DNA of 64,000 bases from Herbinix sp. Its GTDB lineage: Bacteria > Bacillota > Clostridia > Lachnospirales > Lachnospiraceae. Both the position numbers and the translations under genes were made by a program. The notes under the pieces are model-generated. The model made no database searches and was not told the origin of the DNA. It worked only from the letters and a program-made list of their open reading frames with translations. Positions 12,806-25,083 of the stretch are shown in pieces. The stretch spans positions 62,001 to 126,000 of the forward strand of contig JAQSYO010000005.1 of the NCBI GenBank assembly GCA_029256105.1, written 5' to 3'. Positions within the stretch are counted from its first letter, which is position 1. Each line of letters starts with the position of its first letter.

Positions 12806-13507
12806 ATGATCATATCAATGAGAGAATCGAGAGAGAGTGCTAGGAAATATGCTTTACGACAAATTCGTGAAAACATTATAACTCTAAAATTGAAACCTGG
12901 CAGCGAAGTTAGTGAGAATGAATTGGCCAAGGAGCTTGGAATCAGCAGAACACCTGTTAGGGAAGCATTGCAGGAATTACAGAAGATGGGTCTGATTGAG
13001 GTTTTTCCACAAAAAGGAAGTGTAATTTCTCATATTGATTTTGACATTGTTGATGAAATGGTATTTTTACGTAAAATCTTAGAAAAAGCAGTGGTTGAAG
13101 AATTGTGTAGCTGCATTACGATAAAAGATTTACAAGAACTTGATAATAACATTCAGTTACAGGAATTTTACCTAGATCAAAAAAATCCTCAGAAAATATA
13201 TGAGTTAGATAACGAATTTCATCGGTCGCTGTTTGTATTATGCAACAAGGAGCGAATTTATAATCTGATGGAAGAAACGCAAGGACATTTTGACCGTATC
13301 CGAGCTCTGAGCGTATATTCCGTGAAAGATATAAAGATTGTTGCTGATCATAAAGCGATTGTGAATGCAATTAGACTAAATGATAAGGAACTGGCAGCTG
13401 AATTTATAATAAAACATCTATCAAGATATAAATTGGATCAAAGTGAAATTATTGAGAAGTATCCAGAATATTTTATGAAAGAGTATGAAAGGGTGGTAGT
13501 AGTTTAG
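12806..13507 (+). CDS. GntR-family transcriptional regulator, FCD subgroup (paralogue 1)
   Basis: A 233-residue regulator with an N-terminal winged helix (residues ~10-75; the recognition helix region SRTPVREALQELQKM is typical) and an all-helical FCD ligand domain. The domain includes DNEFHRSL and the late histidine in KIVADHKAI, the residues that bind metal and carboxylate effectors. By eye, about four of five residues match the regulator at 46815, including almost the whole DNA-binding part, so both should recognise the same operator. Its position after uxuA suggests that a hexuronate intermediate is the effector. The preceding GAGGAG fits the ATG at 12806. Confidence 0.92.
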   Translation: MIISMRESRESARKYALRQIRENIITLKLKPGSEVSENELAKELGISRTPVREALQELQKMGLIEVFPQKGSVISHIDFDIVDEMVFLRKILEKAVVEELCSCITIKDLQELDNNIQLQEFYLDQKNPQKIYELDNEFHRSLFVLCNKERIYNLMEETQGHFDRIRALSVYSVKDIKIVADHKAIVNAIRLNDKELAAEFIIKHLSRYKLDQSEIIEKYPEYFMKEYERVVVV

Positions 13508-13528
13508 TGCTTTTACAAAATTAAGTAG

Positions 13529-13558
13529 AGCGTGAAAATTTGTTTCACGCTTTGTTTA
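13529..13558 (+). terminator. Rho-independent terminator after gntR paralogue 1
   Basis: The stem AGCGTGAAA / TTTCACGCT has a 5-base loop and is followed by TTGTTT. Confidence 0.85.
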
Positions 13559-13582
13559 ATTTTAAACATTTTATCGTCAACG

Positions 13583-13630
13583 AATAAAGAGGAAGGGTGG
13601 ATTCTATGAATGACACCCTTCCTCTTTATT
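13583..13630. other. Perfect 17-bp inverted repeat
   Basis: AATAAAGAGGAAGGGTG at 13583-13599 pairs with its exact complement at 13614-13630, with a 14-base loop. No long T-tract follows in either direction, so it may be a second terminator, a stability hairpin or an element end. It directly precedes the 15-nt minisatellite. Confidence 0.8.
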
Positions 13631-13666
13631 AGGACCTTAAAATAAATAGTTGTAATAGAACTTTCG

Positions 13667-13920
13667 GAATTGAGATAAGAAAAATTGTGACAAGAAAAAT
13701 TGTGAAAAGAAGAATTGTGACAAGAAGAATTGTGAAAAGAAGAATTGAGACAAGAAGAATTGAGACAAGAAGAATTGAGACAAGAAGAATTGAGACAAGA
13801 TGAATTGAGACAAGAAGAATTGGGACAAGAAGAATTGAGACAAGTAGAATTTGACAAGCAGAATTTGGATAAGCAGAAGTTAGACAAGTAGGATTGGGAC
13901 AAGCTGAATCTGATCAAGCG
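13667..13920. repeat. Minisatellite of about 17 units of 15 nt
   Basis: The consensus is GAATTGAGACAAGAA, repeated in head-to-tail order. The middle units are identical, and both ends, especially 13853-13920, are diverged. In one plus-strand frame the core would read EELRQ repeats, but that frame is closed by stops and lacks a start. Minus-strand frames read as Cys/Ser/Asn or Phe/Leu/Ser repeats without a believable start. It is treated as intergenic repetitive DNA between the gntR terminator and the rex1 promoter. Confidence 0.92.
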
Positions 13921-13978
13921 TATAAATTCATGATAGAGTCTCAGTTAGTTCAGTAATGAGGGTAACACAACAAATCTA

Positions 13979-14007
13979 TTGACATACCTGTATATCGGTA
14001 TTACAAT
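13979..14007 (+). promoter_or_regulatory. Promoter of rex paralogue 1
   Basis: The consensus TTGACA (13979-13984) and TACAAT (14002-14007) are separated by 17 bp. A 22-bp palindrome (13993-14014) covers the -10 element and half of the spacer, an arrangement expected for autorepression. Confidence 0.82.
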
Positions 14008-14014
14008 ATCGATA
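13993..14014. promoter_or_regulatory. 22-bp palindromic operator, site 1
   Basis: TATCGGTATT-AC-AATATCGATA, an inverted repeat with one mismatch between the 10-bp arms. Related sites are at 15855-15876 and 16097-16118. It covers the -10 box of the rex1 promoter. Confidence 0.78.
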
Positions 14015-14045
14015 TATAAATACTGAATAAAACGAGGTGTATCCG

Positions 14046-14699
14046 ATGTATGAGTATAATAAAAATGCAGTGACCACACAAGCACTTCACAGGATGCCGT
14101 ACTATATTCAGCAACTGAGAATATTACAGAATGAAAACATTGAAACTGTGTCAGCACCTAGAATAGCAGAGCGATTGAATTTGAATGAAGTGCAGGTACG
14201 CAAGGATTTTGCTGCAGTCAGTTCTGTGAAAGGCAAACCAAAAGCTGGATTTTCTGTTTCAGAATTATTAGATAATATGGAAGAACTTCTTGGATATAAT
14301 AATGCAGACGAGGCGGTATTGGTTGGTACCGGTTCAATTGCGCACGCTATTCTGGCACATGAGGGTTTTCAAAATTATGGTTTAAAAATAGTGGCAGCTT
14401 TTGATACCAATACAGACGGCATTGGGTCAGAAATAAATGGTATAAAAATATTACCGTCAGATAAAATCAGTAATTTGTGCCGTCGGATGCAAGTGCATAT
14501 CGGCATTATTACGGTGCCAGCACAACAAGCACAGGTTGTATGTGATCAACTTGTGGCAGGTGGTGTTCTTGCCATCTGGAATTTTGCACCGGTTCATTTG
14601 TCTGTTCCAGATTATATTCTCGTGCAGAATGAAAACCTTGTGGCGTCTCTTGCCATGCTGTCGAAGCATTTGAAACAAGCAATGAAGACAAAGATATGA
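14046..14699 (+). CDS. rex: Redox-sensing transcriptional repressor, Rex family (paralogue 1)
   Basis: 217 residues. The N-terminal winged helix includes the Rex signature NEVQVRKDFAAVS, and a Rossmann NAD(H)-binding domain begins at VLVGTGSIAHAIL. Rex proteins bind DNA at a high NAD+/NADH ratio and release it when NADH rises. The ATG at 14046 has GAGG eight bases upstream, and a GTG at 14037 is less likely. The promoter carries a palindrome unlike the classical Rex site. The gene is followed by a LysR gene after 24 bases. It is clearly diverged from the second Rex gene at 18752, so the two may differ in DNA specificity. Confidence 0.9.
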   Translation: MYEYNKNAVTTQALHRMPYYIQQLRILQNENIETVSAPRIAERLNLNEVQVRKDFAAVSSVKGKPKAGFSVSELLDNMEELLGYNNADEAVLVGTGSIAHAILAHEGFQNYGLKIVAAFDTNTDGIGSEINGIKILPSDKISNLCRRMQVHIGIITVPAQQAQVVCDQLVAGGVLAIWNFAPVHLSVPDYILVQNENLVASLAMLSKHLKQAMKTKI

Positions 14700-14723
14700 A
14701 ATAGTTAGAAAGTGGGTATTTAA

Positions 14724-15662
14724 ATGAATACGCTGCATTTAAAATATGCTGTAGAAGTTGAACGGACATGCTCCATATCACAGGCGGCGGAAAATCTTTT
14801 TATGGGGCAGCCAAGTTTAAGTAAGGCAATGAAAGAGTTAGAAGATTCACTGGGATATACGATATTTGAACGTACATCGAAGGGTGTAATACCAACACAA
14901 AAAGGGATAGAATTTTTATCCTATGCAAGAAATATTCTTATTCAAATCGAGAAAATGGAGTCACTCTCTGATTCTGCCAATACAAATAAACAAAATTTTA
15001 ATATATCCATTCCTAGAGGTAGCTATATTGCCGATGCAATTACCAGCTTCGTATCAGAACTCGATGAAAGTAAAGGTATCAATATCAATGTTCAGGAAAC
15101 AAACTCCATGCAGGTAATTAGCAATATTATCGATGGTCCATTCAATCTTGGCATCATCCGTTATCAGGTGGAATATGAAAATTATTTTCTTGATTATCTT
15201 ACAGATAAACAGCTCCAATATGAACCGATATGGGAATTTGAACACCTTGCACTCATGTCAGTAAATCATCCGTTAGCTCAAAGTGAAAATGTGGATTATC
15301 AGGAACTTAAGAAGTATACTGAGATAGCACATGGTGATACGGCAATTCCATATATATTGCAGAGTAATAACACAAAAACAGAAGTATCTACAAAAACATC
15401 AAAACATATTTATGTTTATGAAAGGTGTAGTCAATATGATTTACTGACTACGATTCCAACAACCTACATGTGGGTTTCTCCAATTCCTGAAAAATGGTTA
15501 AATCGATATAATCTTATACAACGAAAATGCAAAGCAACCGGTCACAGATATAAGGATGTATTTATCTATCCTAAGGAATATAAGTTTTCAACGCTTGACA
15601 GAAGCTTTATAGATAAATTGTCTGAAGCAAAGAATGAAGTCGTATTTAGAGATTACAAATAA
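14724..15662 (+). CDS. LysR-family transcriptional regulator
   Basis: 312 residues. The N-terminal helix-turn-helix (residues ~1-60) begins MNTLHLKYAVEVERTCSISQAAENLFMGQPSLS (shown by its ends only as NTLHLKYAVEV and AAENLFMGQPSLS), followed by a helical linker and a periplasmic-binding-like effector domain. The co-inducer is unknown. It is probably co-transcribed with rex1 (24-base gap) and reads toward the nfnAB-hyd block. It is a candidate co-regulator of that operon and could be the protein that uses one of the palindromes in the following gap. Confidence 0.88.
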   Translation: MNTLHLKYAVEVERTCSISQAAENLFMGQPSLSKAMKELEDSLGYTIFERTSKGVIPTQKGIEFLSYARNILIQIEKMESLSDSANTNKQNFNISIPRGSYIADAITSFVSELDESKGININVQETNSMQVISNIIDGPFNLGIIRYQVEYENYFLDYLTDKQLQYEPIWEFEHLALMSVNHPLAQSENVDYQELKKYTEIAHGDTAIPYILQSNNTKTEVSTKTSKHIYVYERCSQYDLLTTIPTTYMWVSPIPEKWLNRYNLIQRKCKATGHRYKDVFIYPKEYKFSTLDRSFIDKLSEAKNEVVFRDYK

Positions 15663-15707
15663 AAGTACTGTGTATCGATAATGTGAATCGATACACAGTA
15701 CTTTTTT
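15661..15707 (+). terminator. Terminator of the rex1-lysR unit
   Basis: An 18-bp stem, AAAGTACTGTGTATCGAT with its complement, loop AATGTGA, then TTTTTT. The inner part, TATCGAT...ATCGATA, resembles the 22-bp operator half-sites with different spacing. Confidence 0.93.
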
Positions 15708-15854
15708 GAACTCTACTAAGGGAATTCAATCGTTAGGACGGAGTGAAAGTACTTATCCTACTGCTTCTGTATAATCGTTTAGGGTTTTCATAGAAACAAT
15801 TTGTAGAGAAGCTTATATTAGCTAATGGGATGCAAGATATTTTACTTTTCTCTA

Positions 15855-15876
15855 TATCGATATTGGAATATCGATA
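15855..15876. promoter_or_regulatory. 22-bp palindromic operator, site 2
   Basis: TATCGATATT-GG-AATATCGATA, a perfect inverted repeat. It overlaps a second palindrome, GGAATATCGATATTCC (15865-15880), so three half-sites lie in tandem here. Confidence 0.8.
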
Positions 15877-16096
15877 TTCCGATATCAACACTTAGAAGGT
15901 AGGTTACTTATCCTAATATATACAAGTCAAAAGATAGGAATGATAGTTAAGAGTATCTGATAAATAATGTAAAAGAGATATAAATCAAAGGAAAAGTCGA
16001 AGTATGTAGTTCAAAATGCGGTCTAACTAGATACAGTTAATTTATATACAACGTGAATACTGTCTCATATTTTATATCATTTTCTAATTTCTGTTA

Positions 16097-16118
16097 TATC
16101 GATAATGGAATATCGATT
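16097..16118. promoter_or_regulatory. 22-bp palindromic operator, site 3
   Basis: TATCGATAAT-GG-AATATCGATT, near-perfect. It ends about 15 bases before the putative -35 region of the nfnAB-hyd promoter. Confidence 0.77.
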
Positions 16119-16132
16119 AACTGTTTTTGCAT

Positions 16133-16169
16133 TTCACTTATGCAATAAAGATTGTTAAAATATAAACAA
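16133..16169 (+). promoter_or_regulatory. Putative nfnAB-hyd promoter with a classical Rex operator
   Basis: TTGTTAA-AATA-TAAACAA at 16152-16169 matches the Rex consensus TTGTTAA-N4-TTAACAA at all but one position. It overlaps a plausible -10, TAAAAT (16156-16161), with TTCACT (16133-16138) 17 bases upstream. The promoter assignment is weaker than the Rex site. Confidence 0.65.
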
Positions 16170-16368
16170 TTCAAGAGCAAGAATACTTCCTAAGGTAGCC
16201 AAACTCGCAATAGGCGATGTATATACCGGCACCTATCCTTAAACAATTACCCCTAAGGTAATTGATATATAGCTGTATTGTATTATTACGATACTGAAGT
16301 TGCTTTCTAATCCATAACAGATAAATAGTGTCGCCAACACATAGTATGTTATAGATTTGAAAATAAAA

Positions 16369-16403
16369 AGGCTGTAGCTGTAAAAAGCCACAGCCTCTTT
16401 TTT
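16369..16403 (+). terminator. Intrinsic terminator within the nfnA leader
   Basis: AGGCTGTAGCT pairs with AGCCACAGCCT (one mismatch) and is followed by CTTTTTT. It lies after the putative promoter and about 100 bases before nfnA, so it would attenuate the operon or end a small RNA. Confidence 0.8.
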
Positions 16404-16507
16404 AAGCCAAGAATAGCGAAAGAAATCTAGTAAAAAGAGAAAAGTTGTTTACGTGACTTTTCATGGTAATAATTAAGTCGCCTTGTGGCGACGAATTGGA
16501 GGTAAAG

Positions 16508-17350
16508 ATGTATAAGATAATCAAGAAAAAAGAACTTAACCCGACAGTAACATTAATGGAGATAGAAGCGCCTATGGTAGCGAAAAAGGCTGAGCCTGGC
16601 CAATTTATAATATTGCGTACCGATGAAGATGGGGAAAGAATGCCACTTACGATAGCAGATTATAACCGTGATAAGGGTACTGTAACAATCATTTTTCAGG
16701 TGGTTGGTGCAACAACTGAAATCCTAAATAACAGGATGGAAGGAGAATGTCTGCAGGATTTCGTCGGTCCACTCGGAAGGAAGACGGAAACCGAAGGTAA
16801 GAGGAAAGTTGCGGTTATAGGTGGTGGTGTTGGTTGTGCGATTGCATATCCGGTAGTAAAGAAATTCCATGAACAAGGAACGCAGGTTCATGCAATCATC
16901 GGTTTTCGAAGTAAAGAGCTGGTAATTCTTGAGAATGAGTTCAAAGCAAACAGTAGCAAACTTGTTCTTATGTCTGATGACGGTAGCTGTGGTGAAAAAG
17001 GACTTGTTACGGATGCACTGAGAAAGCTTATTGAAAGCGGAGAACAGTATGATGAAGTTATCACTGTTGGGCCACTGATTATGATGAAATATATCTGTAA
17101 GCTTACAAAAGAATTTGGGATTAAAACCGTTGCCAGTATGAACCCGATCATGATCGATGGGACAGGAATGTGCGGTGGCTGTCGTCTGACCGTTGGAGGA
17201 AGAACGAAATTCGCATGTGTAGATGGTCCGGAATTTGATGGACATGAAGTTGATTTTGATGAGGCAATTGCCCGTTCCACTTTGTACAAGCCATTTGAGC
17301 GCAAAGCACACGAGGATGTCTGCACTCTCTATAAAACGGAGGTGAAATAA
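16508..17350 (+). CDS. nfnA: NADH-dependent reduced ferredoxin:NADP+ oxidoreductase, subunit A
   Basis: 280 residues, the usual NfnA length. It has an N-terminal FAD-binding barrel (EPGQFIILRTDE region), an NAD(H)-binding domain (VIGGGVGCAIAYP) and a C-terminal [2Fe-2S] site in GMCGGCRLTV with a later FACVDGPEF. It starts at ATG 16508 behind TTGGAGGT; an in-frame ATG at 16463 has no ribosome site. With NfnB it couples ferredoxin and NADH oxidation to NADP+ reduction by flavin-based electron bifurcation. A lone pair of this type is also often annotated as glutamate synthase-associated, but no large glutamate synthase subunit is adjacent. Confidence 0.93.
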   Translation: MYKIIKKKELNPTVTLMEIEAPMVAKKAEPGQFIILRTDEDGERMPLTIADYNRDKGTVTIIFQVVGATTEILNNRMEGECLQDFVGPLGRKTETEGKRKVAVIGGGVGCAIAYPVVKKFHEQGTQVHAIIGFRSKELVILENEFKANSSKLVLMSDDGSCGEKGLVTDALRKLIESGEQYDEVITVGPLIMMKYICKLTKEFGIKTVASMNPIMIDGTGMCGGCRLTVGGRTKFACVDGPEFDGHEVDFDEAIARSTLYKPFERKAHEDVCTLYKTEVK

Positions 17351-18739
17351 ATGTCTGCAAATATGTCATTAGTTAAGAATGAAATGCCTATTCAGAAGGC
17401 TGAGATAAGAAATAAAAACTTTCAGGAGGTTACCCTTGGTTATACAAAGGAACAGGCGATTGAGGAAGCGAAGCGCTGTCTAAACTGTAAGAATAAGCTT
17501 TGTGTTACCGGATGTCCGGTACAGATTGATATTCCTGCATTTATCAAAGAAGTAGCAGACGGTAAATTTGAGACTGCGTATCAGGTAATTACTCTTGCCA
17601 GCTCCTTGCCAGCGGTCTGTGGAAGAGTCTGTCCGCAGGAAACGCAGTGTGAAGAAATATGTGTTCGTGGTATCAAAGGGGAAGCGGTTGCGATTGGAAG
17701 ATTGGAACGCTTTGTTGCAGATTACCATAATGCACACTGCAATGAGAAGGTCGTAAAGCCCGAATCGAATGGTCACAAAGTAGCAGTGGTAGGATCGGGA
17801 CCCTCCGGACTTGCTTGCGCTGGAGATCTTGCAAAAAAAGGATATGAAGTAACGGTTTTTGAAGCATTGCATCTGGCCGGAGGCGTCCTAGTCTATGGAA
17901 TTCCGGAATTCAGACTTCCCAAAGCGATAGTTCAGAAAGAAATAGCAACATTGACAGATCTCGGTGTTGATATTCAGACAAATATGGTAATTGGAAAAAC
18001 CATCTCTATTGATGAACTGATGAAAGACGAGGGCTATGAAGCAGTTTTTATTGGTTCTGGAGCAGGACTTCCAAGGTTTATGAATATAAAGGGTGAGAAT
18101 TTAAAAGGGGTATATTCCGCCAATGAATTTCTTACTAGGATAAATCTGATGAAAGCATATCAGGATAACACTACGACACCGATACACAAGGGCAGCAAAG
18201 TTGCAGTAGTCGGTGGAGGAAATGTTGCTATGGATGCGGCTAGATGTGCGAAGCGTCTTGGAGCAGAAGTAACAATTATATACCGCCGTACCGAAAAGGA
18301 ACTGCCTGCGCGACTGGAAGAGGTGGAGCATGCGAAAGAAGAGGGAATCAAATTCATGTTTTTAACGAATCCACTTCAAATTGAGGGGCAGGAGGATGGT
18401 TGGGCAAAAAGCATCATTTGTCAGGAGATGACACTAGGAGAGGCAGATGCATCGGGTAGACAGATGCCAATTCCCTTACCAGACAGTGAGTTTATAGTTG
18501 AAGCTAATTGCGTTATCATGTCCATCGGAACGTCTCCGAATCCACTAATTAAGGACACAACAGAGGGGCTTGCTATACAAAAATGGGGTGGCATTATAAC
18601 GGAGGAAGAAACCGGATTAACCTCCAGAAGAGGTGTATATGCCGGTGGAGACGCAGTTACTGGTGCTGCTACGGTAATCCTCGCAATGGGAGCTGGAAAA
18701 AATGCAGCAGCTGCGATTGATCGTTTTCTAATAGGATAG
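17351..18739 (+). CDS. nfnB: NADH-dependent reduced ferredoxin:NADP+ oxidoreductase, subunit B (GltD-like)
   Basis: 462 residues, starting at the base after the nfnA stop. The N-terminal cysteine-rich region (CLNCKNKLCVTGC and CGRVCPQETQCEEIC) binds two [4Fe-4S] clusters. The FAD motif VGSGPSGLACAG and the NADPH motif VGGGNVAMDAARCAKRLG follow, and the GG-DAVTGAATVILAMGAGK block closes the FAD site. It is the bifurcating-flavin, NADPH-side subunit of NfnAB. Sequence alone does not fully exclude a free glutamate synthase small subunit, but the fused gene order with NfnA is decisive. Confidence 0.94.
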   Translation: MSANMSLVKNEMPIQKAEIRNKNFQEVTLGYTKEQAIEEAKRCLNCKNKLCVTGCPVQIDIPAFIKEVADGKFETAYQVITLASSLPAVCGRVCPQETQCEEICVRGIKGEAVAIGRLERFVADYHNAHCNEKVVKPESNGHKVAVVGSGPSGLACAGDLAKKGYEVTVFEALHLAGGVLVYGIPEFRLPKAIVQKEIATLTDLGVDIQTNMVIGKTISIDELMKDEGYEAVFIGSGAGLPRFMNIKGENLKGVYSANEFLTRINLMKAYQDNTTTPIHKGSKVAVVGGGNVAMDAARCAKRLGAEVTIIYRRTEKELPARLEEVEHAKEEGIKFMFLTNPLQIEGQEDGWAKSIICQEMTLGEADASGRQMPIPLPDSEFIVEANCVIMSIGTSPNPLIKDTTEGLAIQKWGGIITEEETGLTSRRGVYAGGDAVTGAATVILAMGAGKNAAAAIDRFLIG

Positions 18740-18751
18740 GAGTGTGATGCC

Positions 18752-19393
18752 ATGGCATTTAAACCAATTTCTACACAAACATTACAACGTATGCCGATGT
18801 ATCTGAATTATCTAAAGGACCTCCCTGTAGGAGGAGCAGCGAATATTTCTGCAACGATGATGGCGGATGATCTTAGGCTTAACGACGTTCAGGTCAGAAA
18901 AGACCTTGCAATGGTAGGACAGGGTGGACGTCCGAAAATAGGTTATGTTGTGAAAGATTTGATTTCTGATATTGAACATTGTCTTGGCTTTAACAATATT
19001 GATAGTGCAGTACTCATCGGAGTAGGTAATCTTGGACGCACGTTACTTGAATATGAAGGATTTTCGGAATGCGGAGTTGATATTGTTGTTGCATTTGATG
19101 TTAATCAGAGTATTGTCGGTACTACGATTAATGGTAAACGGATACTCCCGGTAAGTAAGCTTTATAGCATATGTTCAAGAATGAAGATAAAAATGGGAAT
19201 CATTACGGTTGGCACCGGGGAGGCACAAGGTATCTGCGATTTGCTTGTGAAAAGCGGTGTCGTAGCAATATGGAATTTTGCATCAGTTCGTTTGAATGTA
19301 CCTAGTAATGTTTTTGTACATAATGATAATATGACAAGCTCACTTGCTGTCTTGTCAAATTATTTAGTCGAACGATTTAGTACAAATAAATAA
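18752..19393 (+). CDS. rex: Redox-sensing transcriptional repressor, Rex family (paralogue 2)
   Basis: 213 residues with the winged-helix signature NDVQVRKDLAMVGQGGRPKIGY, more canonical than in paralogue 1, and a Rossmann domain VLIGVGNLGRTLL. It starts 12 bases after nfnB behind AGGAG and is followed by hydC, so it is embedded in the operon it probably controls. This copy is the better candidate for the classical Rex site at 16152. Confidence 0.92.
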   Translation: MAFKPISTQTLQRMPMYLNYLKDLPVGGAANISATMMADDLRLNDVQVRKDLAMVGQGGRPKIGYVVKDLISDIEHCLGFNNIDSAVLIGVGNLGRTLLEYEGFSECGVDIVVAFDVNQSIVGTTINGKRILPVSKLYSICSRMKIKMGIITVGTGEAQGICDLLVKSGVVAIWNFASVRLNVPSNVFVHNDNMTSSLAVLSNYLVERFSTNK

Positions 19394-19420
19394 AGTTGAA
19401 TTAATGTTAGATTTGTCAAA

Positions 19421-19578
19421 TTGAAGGAGGAAAAATCCTCTAAGCTACGCTCTAGTATTTTATTATTTATTTGAAGGAGGAAAATTCCTCCAAGCTACAT
19501 TTTAGCAATTTATTACTATTTGAAGGAGGAAAATTCCTCCAAGCTACATTTTAGCAATTTATTATTATTTGAAGGAGG
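19421..19578 (+). repeat. Tandem array of Shine-Dalgarno/anti-Shine-Dalgarno units before hydC
   Basis: TTGAAGGAGG occurs at 19421, 19471, 19520 and 19569, a period of 49-50 bases. In the first three units the motif is followed at once by its complement (GGAGGAA-AA-TTCCTCC in units 2 and 3; unit 1 has a weaker AATCCTC), giving a tight hairpin that would hide the ribosome site. Each is followed by an AAGCTAC...TTTATTATT tail. The fourth lacks the complement and is the working ribosome site of hydC. Confidence 0.93.
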
Positions 19579-19585
19579 AATACAT

Positions 19586-20068
19586 ATGAATGAAACATTT
19601 GATTTCACGAAGGTAGATAGCATAATCAATGAGCTTGGATCAAGACAAAGTGCAATCATTGCTATTTTACAAGGTATCCAGGAGCATTACCGTTACTTAC
19701 CCAAAGAGGTTTTCCCGTACTTATCCAAACAGATCGGAATCAGTGAGGCGAGAATTTATAGTACCGCGACATTTTATGATAATTTTTCGTTGGAACCAAA
19801 AGGAAAATTCGTGATTAAGGTATGTGACGGAACTGCCTGTCATGTTAGAAAGTCTATTCCTATTCTCGAGCGATTGCGTAAGGAACTTGGATTAACTGAG
19901 AAAAAGGCAACCGCAGATGATTTAAGCTTTACTGTGGAAACAGTATCCTGTCTTGGTGCCTGCGGACTGGCCCCAGTCATTACTGTGAATGATAAGGTGT
20001 ATCCAGCAATGACTCCGGATAAAACCTCTGAACTGATTAAAGAATTAAAGGAGGAATTGTTATGTTAA
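19586..20068 (+). CDS. hydC: Bifurcating [FeFe]-hydrogenase, gamma subunit (NuoE-like)
   Basis: 160 residues of the thioredoxin-like [2Fe-2S] family. The helical N-terminus is followed by the four-cysteine site CDGTACHV ... CLGACGLAP. The ATG at 19586 follows TTGAAGGAGGAA directly; in-frame starts upstream lie in the repeat array. It passes electrons between the NADH-oxidising HydB and HydA. The gene order hydC-hydB-hydA matches the trimeric electron-bifurcating hydrogenases of Thermotoga and Clostridia. It overlaps the next gene by 7 bases. Confidence 0.94.
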   Translation: MNETFDFTKVDSIINELGSRQSAIIAILQGIQEHYRYLPKEVFPYLSKQIGISEARIYSTATFYDNFSLEPKGKFVIKVCDGTACHVRKSIPILERLRKELGLTEKKATADDLSFTVETVSCLGACGLAPVITVNDKVYPAMTPDKTSELIKELKEELLC

Positions 20069-21930
20069 GAACGAGAGAAGATCTGATCAATATACGTTCG
20101 ATATATGCAAAATCACTCGAGACGCAGACAAAGAAAATTCTGGTTTGTGCCGGAACTGGATGTGTTTCCAGCGGTTCTCTTGAAATATTCGATCGTCTGA
20201 CCATACTTATGAAAGAACTGAATGTTGCGTGTTCCGTCGAACTTGCCAAAGAACCTCATGAAAATACGGTCGGTATGAAAAAGAGTGGGTGCCATGGATT
20301 TTGTGAGCTGGGACCTCTCGTGCGAATTGAGCCACAGGGGTGGTTATATACCAAAGTGAAGCTTTCGGATTGTGAAGATATTATACAAGAAACCATAATT
20401 AATGAAAAGCATATCGAGCGTCTTGCTTATCAAAAAAACAATAACATATGTAAGAAACAAGATGATATCCCTTTCTATAAAAAACAAACGCGTTTAGTTT
20501 TGGAACACTGTGGTCAAATTGATGCTACCTCGATCAATGAATATTTCAGTATCGGTGGATATGCGGCATTCGAAAAGGCATTGTTTGAGATGACGGCGGA
20601 TGACATTATTAATGAAATTTCAGAAGCTAGTCTACGAGGCAGAGGCGGCGGTGGATTTCCGGCTGGTCGCAAGTGGTCTCAAGTGAAAAGGCAGAAGGTA
20701 CAGCAGAAGTATGTTGTATGTAATGGTGATGAAGGCGATCCTGGTGCATTCATGGATAGAAGTATCATGGAAGGTGATCCGCACCGAATGCTTGAGGGTA
20801 TGATGATCGCCGGGTTAGCCTGTGGTGCTACAGAAGGATATATCTATGTACGTGCAGAATACCCGATGGCAGTCAGCCGTTTGAAAATGGCAATTGAACA
20901 AGCAACTGAATATGGCCTGCTGGGTGACAATATTATGGGAACTGGATTTGATTTTCATATACATATTAACCGTGGTGCCGGTGCCTTTGTTTGTGGAGAA
21001 GGCAGTGCGCTAACCGCTTCCATTGAGGGTAAGCGGGGTATGCCAAGGGTAAAGCCTCCAAGAACTGTAGAACATGGATTATTTGATAAGCCAACCGTAT
21101 TAAATAATGTAGAAACCTATGCAAATGTACCTTTAATTATAACGAACGGTGCCAGTTGGTATAAGAGTATCGGTCCGGAAAACAGCCCGGGAACAAAAGC
21201 ATTTGCTTTAACTGGAAATATCGAAAATACAGGACTGATCGAGGTACCAATGGGTACAACGCTGAGAGAAGTTATTTTTGATATCGGAGGCGGAATGCGT
21301 GATGGTAAGGAATTCAAAGCAGTACAGATCGGCGGTCCTTCTGGTGGATGTCTGACCAAAGAACAACTGGATCTGCCTCTTGATTTTGATTCCTTAAAAA
21401 AAGCCGGTGCAATGATTGGTTCGGGTGGATTAGTCGTAATGGACGAAAATACCTGCATGGTTGAAGTGGCTCGTTTCTTTATGAATTTTACGCAGAATGA
21501 ATCCTGTGGCAAATGTGTTCCTTGCCGTGAGGGAACAAAAAGAATGCTTGCTATTCTTGAACGTATTGTAGAAGGCAAAGGTGAGGATGGAGATATCGAG
21601 CTTTTGCTTGAGCTTGCAGATACTATTTCATCGACAGCACTTTGTGGTTTAGGCAAATCAGCTCCATTTCCAATCGTAAGTACGATAAAGCATTTTCGTT
21701 CGGAATATGAAGCTCATATTTACGATAAAAACTGTCCTACCGGAAACTGCCAGAAGTTGATGAAGATAACAATTGATCCTGCTTTGTGTAAAGGTTGTTC
21801 AAAATGTTCCAGATCCTGTCCGGTTAATGCAATTTCCGGAAAAGTGAAAGAACCATTTGTAATAGATGAGTCTAAATGTATCAAGTGTGGTGCATGCATC
21901 ACAACTTGTCCGTTCCAGGCGATTAAATAG
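20062..21930 (+). CDS. hydB: Bifurcating [FeFe]-hydrogenase, beta subunit (NuoF-like)
   Basis: 622 residues in four parts: an N-terminal thioredoxin-like [2Fe-2S] domain (VCAGTGCVSSG, GCHGFCELGP), the FMN/NADH domain with GRGGGGFPAGRKW and GDEGDPGAFMDR, the NuoF [4Fe-4S] site ESCGKCVPCREG, and a C-terminal two-cluster ferredoxin (CKGCSKCSRSCP, CIKCGACITTCP). This layout is that of HydB, which oxidises NADH at FMN. It works with HydA and HydC to make hydrogen from NADH plus reduced ferredoxin. The N-terminal fusion and the C-terminal ferredoxin distinguish it from complex I NuoF. Confidence 0.95.
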   Translation: MLRTREDLINIRSIYAKSLETQTKKILVCAGTGCVSSGSLEIFDRLTILMKELNVACSVELAKEPHENTVGMKKSGCHGFCELGPLVRIEPQGWLYTKVKLSDCEDIIQETIINEKHIERLAYQKNNNICKKQDDIPFYKKQTRLVLEHCGQIDATSINEYFSIGGYAAFEKALFEMTADDIINEISEASLRGRGGGGFPAGRKWSQVKRQKVQQKYVVCNGDEGDPGAFMDRSIMEGDPHRMLEGMMIAGLACGATEGYIYVRAEYPMAVSRLKMAIEQATEYGLLGDNIMGTGFDFHIHINRGAGAFVCGEGSALTASIEGKRGMPRVKPPRTVEHGLFDKPTVLNNVETYANVPLIITNGASWYKSIGPENSPGTKAFALTGNIENTGLIEVPMGTTLREVIFDIGGGMRDGKEFKAVQIGGPSGGCLTKEQLDLPLDFDSLKKAGAMIGSGGLVVMDENTCMVEVARFFMNFTQNESCGKCVPCREGTKRMLAILERIVEGKGEDGDIELLLELADTISSTALCGLGKSAPFPIVSTIKHFRSEYEAHIYDKNCPTGNCQKLMKITIDPALCKGCSKCSRSCPVNAISGKVKEPFVIDESKCIKCGACITTCPFQAIK

Positions 21931-21933
21931 AAA

Positions 21934-21960
21934 AAGAATTTTGAAAGAACCAAAATTCTT
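21934..21960 (+). other. 10-bp hairpin after hydB
   Basis: AAGAATTTTG pairs with CAAAATTCTT across a 7-base loop. There is no T-tract, so it is likely a processing or stability structure rather than a terminator. The palindromic element copy 2 follows at once. Confidence 0.7.
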
Positions 21961-21963
21961 GGA

Positions 21964-22013
21964 AAGAACTCCAAAATGAAATCCATAGGAATTTCATTTT
22001 GAACTTCTTTCAG
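21964..22013. repeat. Palindromic ~50-bp repeat element, copy 2
   Basis: Matches 1377-1430 over about 50 bases: AGAACTCC, the inverted repeat CAAAATGAAAT...ATTTCATTTTG, then AACTTCTTTCAGG. The stem carries a compensated pair change relative to copy 1. It sits in the 142-154-base gap between hydB and hydA. Confidence 0.8.
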
Positions 22014-22084
22014 GTTAATGCATCTTCAATCGAAAGAAGATTTAACTATATAGGATGCCTTAGAGTGGCATCATGGAGGTAAAA

Positions 22085-23782
22085 ATGGATAAGAAAGATA
22101 TAATGATAATTGATGGAATACCAGTGGAAATAGGTAGTGAAAAGAACCTTCTTGAACTGATTCGTAAAGTTGGAATTAAAATGCCGACCTTCTGTTATCA
22201 TTCGGAGCTTTCCATATACGGTGCCTGTCGTATGTGTATGGTTGAAAATGAATGGGGTGGAATTGATGCAGCCTGTTCCACGATACCAAAAGCAGGAATG
22301 AACATAAGAACAAATACAGAAAGACTTCGTAAGTATCGTAAGAACATTCTGGAGCTTTTACTTGCAAATCATTGTCGTGACTGTACTACCTGCAGTAATA
22401 ATGGAAAATGCAAACTACAAGATCTTGCAATGCGTTTTAATATTAAAGGAGTACGTTTCCCTAATACAGCCGAACAGCCTAAAATTGATGATTCCTCGCT
22501 TTGCATTACCCGTGATGCAAATAAGTGTATTCTTTGTGGTGACTGTGTAAGAGTATGTAATGAGATACAAAATGTTGGTGCAATCGATTTTGCACATCGT
22601 GGTTCAAAAATGACGATTAGTACTGCATTTGATATTCCGATTGCAGAGTCACCCTGTGTTGGCTGCGGTCAGTGTGCGACAGCATGTCCAACCGGTGCAA
22701 TTGTAGTGAAAAATGATATCCAGAAGGTCTGGGAAGCATTAGATAATAAGGATGTGAAGGTAACAGTGCAGATTGCGCCTGCGGTTCGTGTCGGTCTTGG
22801 TAAGAAGATGGGAATGAAATCAGAAGACAATGCAATGGGTATGATTGTTGCTTCACTTCGACGTATGGGCTTTGATGAAATTTACGACACTAGTACCGGA
22901 GCGGATATTACGGTCCTTGAAGAAACAAGCGAATTTCTAAAACGGTTACAAAATGACAGTCATATTCCTCTTTTTACTTCCTGTTGCCCTGCATGGGTAC
23001 AGTATTGTGAAAAGAATTACCCGGAGCTTCTGCCTAACGTTTCCACTTGCCGTTCTCCTATGGAAATGCTTGCATCTATTATTAAGGATCAATCAAGTAC
23101 TTCCAGCCGCCGCCATGTTCACGTTGCAGTAATGCCATGTACAGCGAAAAAGTATGAAGCAGCAAGAGAAGAGTTCAAAGTGGAGGGTTCTCCAAACGTT
23201 GACTATGTAATAACGACACAGGAATTGATCCAGATGGTTCGTGAATCCGGTATTATTTTCACAGAGATGGAGCCAGAGGCGGTTGACATGCCTTTTGGTA
23301 CAATGACTGGTGCCGGTGTTATCTTTGGTGTGACTGGCGGTGTTACGGAAGCCGTTCTTCGCCGTCTTTCCTCAGATAAGTCCAAAGCTGCACTTGTATC
23401 TATCGCATATCAAGGTGTGCGTGGAATGAAGGGTGTTAAGGAAACTACAGTGATGTATGGTGGTAAAGAGATTAAAATTGCTGTAGTTAGTGGACTTAAG
23501 AACGCAAGTGATTTGATTGCAAAAATAAAAGCAGGTGAGCATTATGACTTTGTTGAAGTAATGGCTTGTCCTGGAGGGTGTGTATGTGGTGCTGGACAAC
23601 CGTTTGCCGAGAGTAGGGTTAGAGAAAACAGAGGCAAAGGATTATATGCTGCTGACCGACTCTGCAATATAAAGTATGCGGAAGAAAACCCACTCATGTT
23701 ACCTTTGTATCATGGAATATTAAAAGGCAGAGTGCATGAACTTTTACATGTAGATTACCTACATGGAAAGGAGCATGAGTAG
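22085..23782 (+). CDS. hydA: [FeFe]-hydrogenase catalytic subunit
   Basis: 565 residues. The N-terminal [2Fe-2S] domain (YGACRMC) is followed by a His-Cys [4Fe-4S] motif (HCRDCTTCSNNGKC) and a two-cluster ferredoxin (CILCGDCVRVC, CVGCGQCATAC). The H-cluster domain has TSCCPAW with C300, MPCTAKKYEA with C352 and ACPGGC with C495 and C499. The last motif reads VCGAGQP where VNGGGQP is usual. It starts at ATG 22085 behind GGAGGT; an ATG at 22073 lies inside that site. It reduces protons to H2 with electrons bifurcated from NADH and ferredoxin. Confidence 0.96.
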   Translation: MDKKDIMIIDGIPVEIGSEKNLLELIRKVGIKMPTFCYHSELSIYGACRMCMVENEWGGIDAACSTIPKAGMNIRTNTERLRKYRKNILELLLANHCRDCTTCSNNGKCKLQDLAMRFNIKGVRFPNTAEQPKIDDSSLCITRDANKCILCGDCVRVCNEIQNVGAIDFAHRGSKMTISTAFDIPIAESPCVGCGQCATACPTGAIVVKNDIQKVWEALDNKDVKVTVQIAPAVRVGLGKKMGMKSEDNAMGMIVASLRRMGFDEIYDTSTGADITVLEETSEFLKRLQNDSHIPLFTSCCPAWVQYCEKNYPELLPNVSTCRSPMEMLASIIKDQSSTSSRRHVHVAVMPCTAKKYEAAREEFKVEGSPNVDYVITTQELIQMVRESGIIFTEMEPEAVDMPFGTMTGAGVIFGVTGGVTEAVLRRLSSDKSKAALVSIAYQGVRGMKGVKETTVMYGGKEIKIAVVSGLKNASDLIAKIKAGEHYDFVEVMACPGGCVCGAGQPFAESRVRENRGKGLYAADRLCNIKYAEENPLMLPLYHGILKGRVHELLHVDYLHGKEHE

Positions 23783-23783
23783 C

Positions 23784-24032
23784 ATGGTTGAAATCAATGT
23801 GTGTATCGGTACCTCCTGCCATTTAAATGGCTCCTATAATGTCGTTCAAACCTTTCAACAACTGATTGAGGAATATTCACTTCATGAGAAAATTGAGTTC
23901 GAAGCAAAGTTCTGTATGAAAGAATGTCAGAACAAAGGTGTTTCAGTTTCAGTGGATGGAGTAGCCTATCGAATTGAACCAGAGAACGCAAGAGAATTTT
24001 TTCTGAGTACGATTTTATGTAAAATGAAATAG
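23784..24032 (+). CDS. Small thioredoxin-like [2Fe-2S] protein of the hydrogenase operon
   Basis: 82 residues with four cysteines in the NuoE/thioredoxin-like ferredoxin pattern: CIGTSCHLNGS near the start and FCMKECQNKGV in the second half. It begins one base after the hydA stop, behind AAAGGAG. Other in-frame ATGs at 23763 and 23775 are too close to or inside that site. Similar small proteins occur beside clostridial HydA genes. It could be a fourth subunit or an electron carrier for the complex. It is distinct from HydC, which has an extra helical N-terminal part. Confidence 0.78.
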   Translation: MVEINVCIGTSCHLNGSYNVVQTFQQLIEEYSLHEKIEFEAKFCMKECQNKGVSVSVDGVAYRIEPENAREFFLSTILCKMK

Positions 24033-24253
24033 ATACTGTTAAGAAGGTATTGAATAAACCGGAAGGAATTGTGGGCTTGGCGAAGTGATTTGGTAGTACT
24101 TATGAAGATGCAGCTTATGATGCTTTTGTAACTGCATTTATGGAATGGACATCTTATAAAGCACCGGAAGATTTATGCATTATCTTATCAAGATATCAAA
24201 AGGATTATGAAACCTGGTGGATGAAACCTCGGCCATTAGTAAATGAATGGTAA
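24032..24253 (+). pseudogene. Remnant of an unidentified protein gene
   Basis: One frame reads as protein-like sequence from 24032 to the stop at 24251-24253 (ending QKDYETWWMKPRPLVNEW), broken by an in-frame TGA at 24086-24088. There is no start codon with a ribosome site. Codon use looks coding, with acidic and aromatic residues in a regular pattern. It is probably the C-terminal end of a decayed gene. The family is not recognised. Confidence 0.4.
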
Positions 24254-24498
24254 CTACTAATATATAAATATGAATAAAAATCAAGTAAAAAGTAATGAGT
24301 TCCTTATTAACAAAGAGGTTTTTTGATAAAAGCCATAGAGTTGATTTGGAACTCTTTTTCTATGTGGAAGAGAACCATTATTTAGAAATGTTAATAAATA
24401 AGTTTATTCTTATTGACAATAAAAAAATCATCACATATAATAAGTAACAGATGTTACGTAACTAATATTACCTAAAACATGAATTAGGAGGTGTTTGT
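24254..24498. terminator. Terminator and promoter gap before the TetR gene
   Basis: The stem AGAGTT / AACTCT (24337-24355) is followed by TTTTC and likely ends leftward transcripts. GAGTTCC (24297-24303) could pair with GGAACTC (24348-24354) as an alternative. The promoter and operator of the TetR gene follow and are listed separately. Confidence 0.6.
24413..24462 (+). promoter_or_regulatory. Promoter and candidate TetR operator
   Basis: TTGACA (24413-24418) and TATAAT (24436-24441) are 17 bp apart, a full consensus promoter. Just downstream lies GTAAC-AGAT-GTTAC-GTAAC (24444-24462), which includes the palindrome GTTACGTAAC (24453-24462). This is the expected place for autorepression by the TetR protein that follows. 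Confidence 0.78.
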
Positions 24499-25083
24499 GT
24501 GCCACCCAAAATAAAGGTCACAAAAGACGACATAGAGAAAGTAGCACTATGTATTGTTCGGGAGAAGGGATTTGAAAATCTAAATGCCCGTGATTTGGCA
24601 AAGGAGATTGGATGTTCTGTGCATCCGATATATAGAGCATTTGCTTCGATGGAGGAACTTAAAACTGCGATCTACAAAAAGGCGGAGCAAATCTATAATC
24701 AGTGCTTACAAAGTGCAGCGGAACAGGGAGCGGCTGATTTTCTTAATGTTGGACTTACTTATATTGATTTTGCAAAGAATGAGAAAAATCTGTTCAAGCT
24801 AATATTTATGTCGGATGCATTTCGGGAGCAAAGTATAATGGATATCGTAGGTGCAACAGAGGGAGACGATGAAGTTATAGAAATGCTGTGCCAAAGAACC
24901 AACTTAAGTATCCGTGCAGCTAAGGAGTTATATGCAGGAGTTTGGCTTACTACACATGGGATTGCATCCATGTTTGCTACGAATAGCTGCCGATTTAGTG
25001 ATGAAGAAAATAGGCGCTTATTAAGTAATTCATTTATGGGTTTAATAATGAAATTAAAGAAAGAAGAGGAACAAAACAAATGA
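24499..25083 (+). CDS. TetR/AcrR-family transcriptional regulator
   Basis: 194 residues. It starts with GTG behind TAGGAGGTG. The N-terminal helix-turn-helix covers roughly residues 8-55 (NARDLAKEIGCSVHPIYRAFASMEEL region), and the C-terminal part is the WHG-type ligand domain, here with LTTHGIASM. Its ligand is unknown. Its stop overlaps the start of the CPBP protease gene (ATGA), so the two are co-transcribed and the regulator probably controls itself and the protease through the palindrome at 24453. Confidence 0.9.
   Translation: MPPKIKVTKDDIEKVALCIVREKGFENLNARDLAKEIGCSVHPIYRAFASMEELKTAIYKKAEQIYNQCLQSAAEQGAADFLNVGLTYIDFAKNEKNLFKLIFMSDAFREQSIMDIVGATEGDDEVIEMLCQRTNLSIRAAKELYAGVWLTTHGIASMFATNSCRFSDEENRRLLSNSFMGLIMKLKKEEEQNK

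Follow-up and report, generated by a model that had tools for sequence, protein, structure and literature searches.

Genes and Predicted Elements at the Locus

The window analyzed here, a stretch of 64,000 nucleotides from a Herbinix genome, contains a gene for a Rex-type repressor (rex1) followed by a gene for a LysR-type regulator and, farther downstream, the genes nfnAB-rex2-hydCBA, which include a second Rex gene and an [FeFe] hydrogenase. Three copies of a 22-bp palindrome lie among these genes: one upstream of rex1, and two situated between lysR and nfnAB-rex2-hydCBA. The features of the region are listed in Table 1.

Table 1. Genes and predicted regulatory elements, in window coordinates (a dot indicates that no strand is assigned)
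Feature	Position	Strand	Remarks
Predicted sigma-70 promoter, rex1-lysR	13979..14007	+	TTGACA-17-TACAAT, 11/12 consensus matches
Putative operator 1, box pair across -10 of rex1 promoter	13993..14014	.	1 mismatch
rex1, Rex-subfamily repressor	14046..14699	+	Likely reader of the boxes
lysR, LysR-type regulator 3' of rex1	14724..15662	+	Pfam PF00126, PF03466
Terminator hairpin	15661..15705	.	Boxes spaced 13 bp, read as incidental
Putative operator 2	15855..15890	.	Exact pair 15855-15876 and overlapping weaker pair 15869-15890
Putative operator 3	16097..16118	.	Box pair at about -60 of predicted nfn promoter; 2 mismatches to the 20-base pattern, 1 to the box pair
Weak predicted promoter, nfnAB-rex2-hydCBA	16133..16161	+	TTCACT-17-TAAAAT, TG 5' of -10, 9/12
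Classical-type Rex site TTGTTAAAATATAAACAA	16152..16169	.	1 mismatch; center 53 bp from operator 3 center
nfnA, nfnB	16508..18739	+	nfnA 16508-17350, nfnB 17351-18739; Pfam
rex2, second Rex-subfamily member	18752..19393	+	46% identity to rex1
hydC, hydB, hydA, [FeFe] hydrogenase	19580..23782	+	hydC 19580-20068, hydB 20062-21930, hydA 22073-23782; Pfam

The initial annotation had placed the first copy over the -10 box of a consensus promoter for rex1, and our analysis agrees, the predicted promoter being a strong one; the TTGACA element of this promoter is conserved among aligned relatives. The promoter call for the nfn operon is weak by itself (the scan returned seven promoter-like sites versus 13.5 in shuffled sequences), and its -10 region is conserved in six aligned sequences from the genus.

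Copies of the Palindrome in the Window and in the Genome

The palindrome reads TATCGATATT-N2-AATATCGATA. All three copies reported in the initial annotation are real and local, although only that at 15855-15876 is exact. The copy at 13993-14014 has one mismatch, and that at 16097-16118 has two against the 20-base pattern, or one against the box pair described later. A fourth match, with three mismatches (15869-15890), overlaps the exact copy. In 100 dinucleotide shuffles, 0.03 matches were expected at three or fewer mismatches, and no shuffle gave four matches.

Besides these three copies, the whole 4.8-Mb genome contains no place that matches with up to two mismatches. At up to three mismatches, it has six places (the four in the window and two more) versus two for a reversed control pattern. 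Counts of the box pair at two mismatches are noisy, with 12 places versus six for the control in this genome and two versus six in another (G024). Judged from the genome scan and from the other genomes surveyed, the palindrome is not scattered at random genomic positions, a distribution that the initial annotation had named as evidence against a regulatory role.

A spaced variant had also been noted within the terminator downstream of lysR. The sequence is present, but its boxes are 13 rather than 14 bp apart, and no box-bearing hairpin with 13-bp spacing was seen in the 120 bp 3' of lysR in four relatives. We therefore rejected it as a fourth operator.

A Box Pair Upstream of One Rex Subfamily

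The 22-bp palindrome consists of two TATCGATA boxes 14 bp apart, each of which is itself an 8-bp palindrome. Owing to this symmetry, direct repeats of the box are at the same time inverted repeats, and longer arrays with a 14-bp period are possible.

We collected rex genes by protein similarity, which yielded 113 genes and, after removal of near-copies, 107; one further locus (L053) had been omitted beforehand because it is the same locus as L045. The set comprises 86 genes of the subfamily to which rex1 and rex2 belong, these two included, and 21 classical rex genes. In an unbiased count of 8-mers in the 300 bp upstream of each gene, TATCGATA was the top word for the subfamily, occurring in 42 of 86 upstream regions versus 0.70 expected. 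When one mismatch was allowed per box, boxes in these regions were spaced by 14 bp (48 times), 28 bp (14 times), or 42 bp (four times), and by any other distance up to 45 bp at most three times. In the 21 classical upstream regions, TATCGATA falls outside the top 14 words, and no box pairs occur within 45 bp; a single box with at most one mismatch precedes seven of these genes.

A pair with up to two mismatches lies upstream of 41 of the 86 subfamily genes (0.02 in shuffled sequences and zero for the reversed pattern), and a pair with two mismatches precedes one classical gene (L019). The remaining 45 subfamily genes lack such a pair within 300 bp; they include rex2 of the window, which is internal to its operon. 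They yielded no other clear word, with TATCGATA still ranking first (6/45). Base frequencies derived from sites chosen by their boxes depend on that selection and hence do not constitute independent evidence.

Classical Rex proteins recognize TTGTTAA-N4-TTAACAA in Clostridiaceae and TTGTGAA-N4-TTCACAA overall, and complexes have been solved (7WB3, 3WGI). The classical operator (TTGTTAA/TTGTGAA-N4-TTMACAA) does not typify the region before the subfamily's own genes: a classical-type site with up to two mismatches was found upstream of six of 86 subfamily genes (0.58 expected) and of two of 21 classical genes, the latter count making autoregulation a weak yardstick. Some subfamily genes may also be read by classical Rex.

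Properties of the Subfamily Proteins

Rex1 and Rex2 of the window match the N-terminal winged-helix domain PF06971 and the C-terminal Rossmann domain PF02629 above curated cut-offs and have the Rex fold. The NAD(H) site, comprising a glycine motif and the Asp for the adenosine ribose, is retained in the subfamily, with G89 and D115 present in all 86 proteins and G91 in 84. The nicotinamide-stacking Tyr100 occurs in 75 of 86; Rex1 of the window has His100, and its response to NADH may differ for this reason. In the Rex tree, a 100/100 branch separates the 86 subfamily rows from the 21 classical rows, so that the subfamily falls outside the classical branch; the bootstrap is not fully settled, and the classical rows come from one family only.

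Fixed differences between the subfamily and classical Rex involve position 45 (Val or Ile in 86 of 86 proteins), position 60 (Pro in 84), and position 61 (Lys or Arg in 83), and Arg48 and Lys49 are kept in all 86. Glu or Asp at position 44 was considered as a specificity residue and rejected, being present in just 62 of 86.

The subfamily is like classical Rex in its fold and domains, in its predicted autoregulation and NADH-linked targets, and in a dimeric operator register that keeps T-9, G-7, T-5, and A-4. It differs in that its TATCGATA boxes are self-palindromic and often form 14-bp arrays, in changes to the recognition helix and wing at fixed positions 45, 52, 60, and 61, and in forming a separate branch. 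Also, classical Rex has a wide regulon, whereas the subfamily boxes are local, with essentially one locus per genome. Pair-bearing members include records assigned to Bacillota, Chloroflexota, Bacteroidota, Omnitrophota, and Synergistota, many of them metagenome bins whose labels are possibly wrong.

Besides Rex1 and Rex2, the genome encodes a classical Rex protein on a different contig, which brings the total to three; the initial annotation had counted two. Taken as a whole, that annotation is substantially right: it holds for the reality and local placement of the copies and for the position of the first over the -10 box, and it needs correction in the number of Rex proteins.

Co-Occurrence of the Box Pair and the Subfamily

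An exact pair is found in 14 of 391 genomes of the class, at 19 places, versus three places in three genomes for the reversed control. The subfamily is encoded in 35 of the 391 genomes, and these include 13 of the 14 exact-pair genomes (Fisher p 3e-14, own genome included). The sole exception, G479, has two exact pairs (L208:10607 and L209:4202) with unrecognized neighbors and no subfamily Rex match at E 1e-40.

Apart from the window's own genome, 15 pair loci were opened, of which 11 have a subfamily rex gene within about 1.5 kb. At L184, the pair accompanies lysR, lactate dehydrogenase, and fumarase genes, with rex about 11 kb away, and at L176, it lies near hydrogenase-type matches, with rex on a different contig. 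Approached from the Rex side, 30 opened loci of the class sample include 14 with a pair upstream of rex, four with a pair elsewhere in the locus, and 12 with none. In nine genomes of the family (the window's own and eight others), all exact and one-mismatch pairs are at rex or at a linked hydrogenase locus; a genome-wide regulon is not supported. The finding is larger than the initial annotation stated, because the operator code likely goes with a whole Rex subfamily in many anaerobic bacteria.

Conservation within the Genus

The DNA behind operator 3 has kin in the window's genus, with nine of 61 genomes matching, own included, and five other strong matches were compared with the window. All five relatives carry operators 2 and 3, and operator 1 is present in the four whose stretch contains rex1; in the fifth (G654), rex1-lysR is on another contig with a two-mismatch pair upstream. 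Across their 22 bp, operators 1, 2, and 3 show 92%, 93%, and 97% identity, versus 32-42% in the 40-bp flanks and 70% in the right flank of operator 3, which contains the promoter; as the sites were located by pattern, this identity is partly by selection. The same conserved islands appear in a whole-region alignment.

Three of the five relatives (L261, L264, and L265) lack rex2 in the operon and retain the operators, so rex2 is unnecessary to explain them. An iron-type alcohol dehydrogenase gene lies between operator 3 and the nfn/hyd genes in four of the five, and it is absent in the window and in L265. Start-to-start distances between operators 2 and 3, compared with a view to possible looping, range from 154 to 318 bp in the six genus sequences, with no single helical phase. 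In G643 (L263:2977-8556), about 5.5 kb of other DNA separates lysR from operators 2 and 3, which are still in place before the alcohol dehydrogenase gene.

A Classical-Type Site Near the Third Box Pair

The classical-type site at 16152-16169 spans the -10 element of the promoter predicted for nfn and is likely a classical Rex site. Among 109 distinct pairs (one mismatch allowed), a classical-type site with up to two mismatches lies exactly 53 bp away in 10 cases, five contributed by the window's genus, and three further cases have a distance of 50-52 bp. Out to about 200 bp, every other distance is represented by one or two cases, and a scrambled palindrome gave four scattered cases as a control. 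All but one of these 13 composite cases (the exception is L237) come after a lysR gene.

Conservation of the classical-type site is partly that of the extended -10 itself (TGTTAAAAT), and its right arm is poor in L261 and L263. The scan of the window's own genome gave 105 classical-type sites with up to two mismatches versus 116 for the control and so does not delineate a classical regulon; 10 sites have at most one mismatch, including that of the window. The initial annotation had proposed two operator codes, which comes near the truth, except that both Rex paralogues of the window go with the new boxes. The second code would be that of the unlinked classical Rex, for which the site at 16152-16169 is a candidate.

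Candidate Readers of the Boxes

The initial annotation had left the choice between a Rex with changed specificity and the LysR protein. Comparison across genomes favors the former, and we consider it quite probable that the box pair is the operator of the deep Rex subfamily represented by rex1 and rex2, with a predicted DNA specificity other than the classical one. LysR fits poorly with the LysR-free box loci and the boxless LysR loci. If LysR were the reader, it would repress rex1-lysR at operator 1 and activate the nfn/alcohol-dehydrogenase promoter from operator 3 at about -60, a common position for LysR activators. The setting does resemble that of LysR-type sites: lysR lies beside the sites, with operators on both sides of it in the window and in four of five genus relatives; a dyad stands at about -60 of the nfn promoter with its poor -35; and the composite promoters almost all come after lysR. 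However, the boxes do not accompany lysR genes that lack this Rex. Our survey of 250 family genomes, 29 of which had a LysR match with an E-value of 1e-30 or lower, gave 30 loci with about 1.5 kb on each side. None of the 26 loci without an adjacent rex has a pair at up to two mismatches (L169 has two at three mismatches, and three of the 26 come from genomes with the subfamily elsewhere), whereas all four loci beside rex1, own included, carry such pairs. LysR genes are absent within 3 kb of 35 of the 41 box-bearing rex genes, 22 of the 35 having full 3-kb flanks on both sides, and the pair is similarly frequent without LysR nearby (35/72) and with it (6/14). Thus, the site does not stay with lysR across genomes; because LysR loci without rex lack pairs and box-bearing rex genes mostly lack LysR, the boxes track Rex, and LysR is an unlikely reader on its own.

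LysR may still act at the nfn/alcohol-dehydrogenase promoter. In one refinement, contained in our preferred reading rather than competing with it, subfamily Rex would read the boxes in general, with LysR sharing operator 3 or competing for it, so that Rex acts as an anti-activator at the composite promoter. The composite arrangement of pair, 53-bp distance, and classical-type site over an extended -10, with its lysR neighbor, speaks for this scheme, as does the tendency of LysR-free pairs to overlap the core promoter. It is possible, but we lean against it, as the conserved TTTGCATTTCA stretch adjoining operator 3 could be LysR's own site. An unlinked third regulator might instead read the boxes, the Rex subfamily being a mere passenger of the gene clusters. 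The exact pairs of G479 would agree with this, as would a genome (G616) in which pair and rex are on separate contigs. Such a regulator is very improbable given that the pair stands directly before so many subfamily rex genes, spread over the tree, and that the pairs in the nine family genomes keep to rex or the linked hydrogenase locus. Finally, TATCGATA is AT-rich and self-complementary, and loose matches do occur, as in the two-mismatch counts given earlier for the window's own genome; but the fixed 14-bp period, the genus footprint, and the reciprocal co-occurrence make functionless repeats, arisen by chance or mutation, scarcely credible.

Predicted Regulation and Biologic Roles

Binding of the boxes by subfamily Rex is likely, and a Rex dimer would fit the box pair in the classical register, with G-7 and A-4 from the center falling on a G and an A of the box. 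In the T. maritima Rex-DNA structure (PMC8836258), these two bases are read by Arg48 and Lys49. Promoters could be predicted for 36 of the 41 box-bearing rex genes, and the pair overlaps the region from -35 to +20 in 27 of the 36 (0.40 at random), a location that suits a repressor.

Genes adjoining the boxes, many of them NADH-linked, encode AdhE, iron-type alcohol dehydrogenase, lactate dehydrogenase, fumarase, HydCBA, and [FeFe] hydrogenases; those at L046 include CbiK and ApbE, so not all neighbors are NADH-linked. On our best reading, subfamily Rex would control its own gene along with fermentation genes whose products consume NADH. The proximity of fumarase and lactate dehydrogenase genes to box-bearing rex (L098:8757-10133, L067:7691-9061, and L059:7848-8885; also L184, L223, and L245) hints at an additional role of the subfamily in directing lactate and fumarate routes. 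At L048:7388-11864 and L101:7639-9309, pairs before rex are followed by [FeFe]-hydrogenase-domain genes, and at L048, a gene with a SpoIIE-type phosphatase domain lies between two of these.

In the proposed mechanism, scarcity of NADH would lead Rex1, perhaps together with Rex2, to bind operator 1, which covers the -10 of the rex1-lysR promoter, as well as operators 2 and 3 ahead of nfnAB-rex2-hydCBA. As NADH builds up, Rex would be released, and the hydrogenase, the transhydrogenase, and, in relatives, the alcohol dehydrogenase would drain the excess. From its location at about -60, 53 bp from the classical-type site, operator 3 could act by blocking an activator, by looping to operator 2, or by activation; with this location and the poor -35, activation or a LysR role may apply at the nfn promoter. 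More broadly, anaerobes might have two parallel Rex systems, one consisting of classical Rex with TTGTTAA arms and the other of a second deep lineage on TATCGATA boxes, whose dimers tile in 14-bp steps. At some promoters, the two codes would be fixed at a distance of exactly 53 bp, or five helical turns, and a single hydrogenase/alcohol-dehydrogenase promoter would thereby be set jointly by LysR and two NADH sensors. This larger model is tentative, and we give it slightly less than even weight.

A related case could be Rex_1799/Cthe_0422 of C. thermocellum, a second Rex with 34-36% identity to characterized Rex whose gene lies next to adhE and hydrogenase genes (PMC8457756, PMC3848806). Phased pairs precede rex in the Acetivibrio relatives L073 and L074, and on the basis of these pairs and of the identity values, Cthe_0422 probably belongs to the boxed subfamily. 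The DAP-seq results for C. thermocellum concern classical Rex_2471, and the available excerpts report no operator for Rex_1799/Cthe_0422. After furfural treatment, Cthe_0422-0432 (rex, adhE, and hydrogenase) showed the largest fall, and the authors connect it with depletion of NAD(P)H (PMC3848806); this response fits the control proposed here.

The genes that adjoin the boxes, which include both bifurcating and sensory-type [FeFe] hydrogenases, decide among hydrogen, ethanol, and lactate as products, and the probable inclusion of the C. thermocellum Rex encoded next to adhE makes the subfamily relevant to biofuel strains. In Gram-positive bacteria, Rex serves as the standard sensor of NADH in metabolism, and one operator is taken to hold almost universally. 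Searches for Rex regulons rely on TTGTTAA-type patterns (for example, PMC9600882) and would miss a second code. None of the titles and abstract openings returned by our searches of the open-licence PubMed Central literature describes an operator made of TATCGATA pairs. The two Rex lines also provide a clean pair of paralogues for the study of changes in the DNA alphabet of winged-helix proteins.

Additional Observations

The leader at 16162-16410, 5' of nfnA, is strongly structured (z -4.24; none of 200 shuffles as low) and ends with a terminator-like hairpin (16377-16394). It is partially conserved, with 73-78% identity in five genus relatives, and an Rfam search with it gave nothing above threshold. 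The leader is possibly an attenuator or riboswitch ahead of the nfn-hydrogenase operon.

An Rfam scan of 13500-24500 gave a single match above the gathering score, CRISPR-DR44 at 14256-14283, and four below; the former sits within the rex1 reading frame and was rejected as a chance match. Directly 5' of the rex1 promoter, at 13667-13903, a 15-bp unit, GAATTGAGACAAGAA, is repeated in tandem for 15.9 copies.
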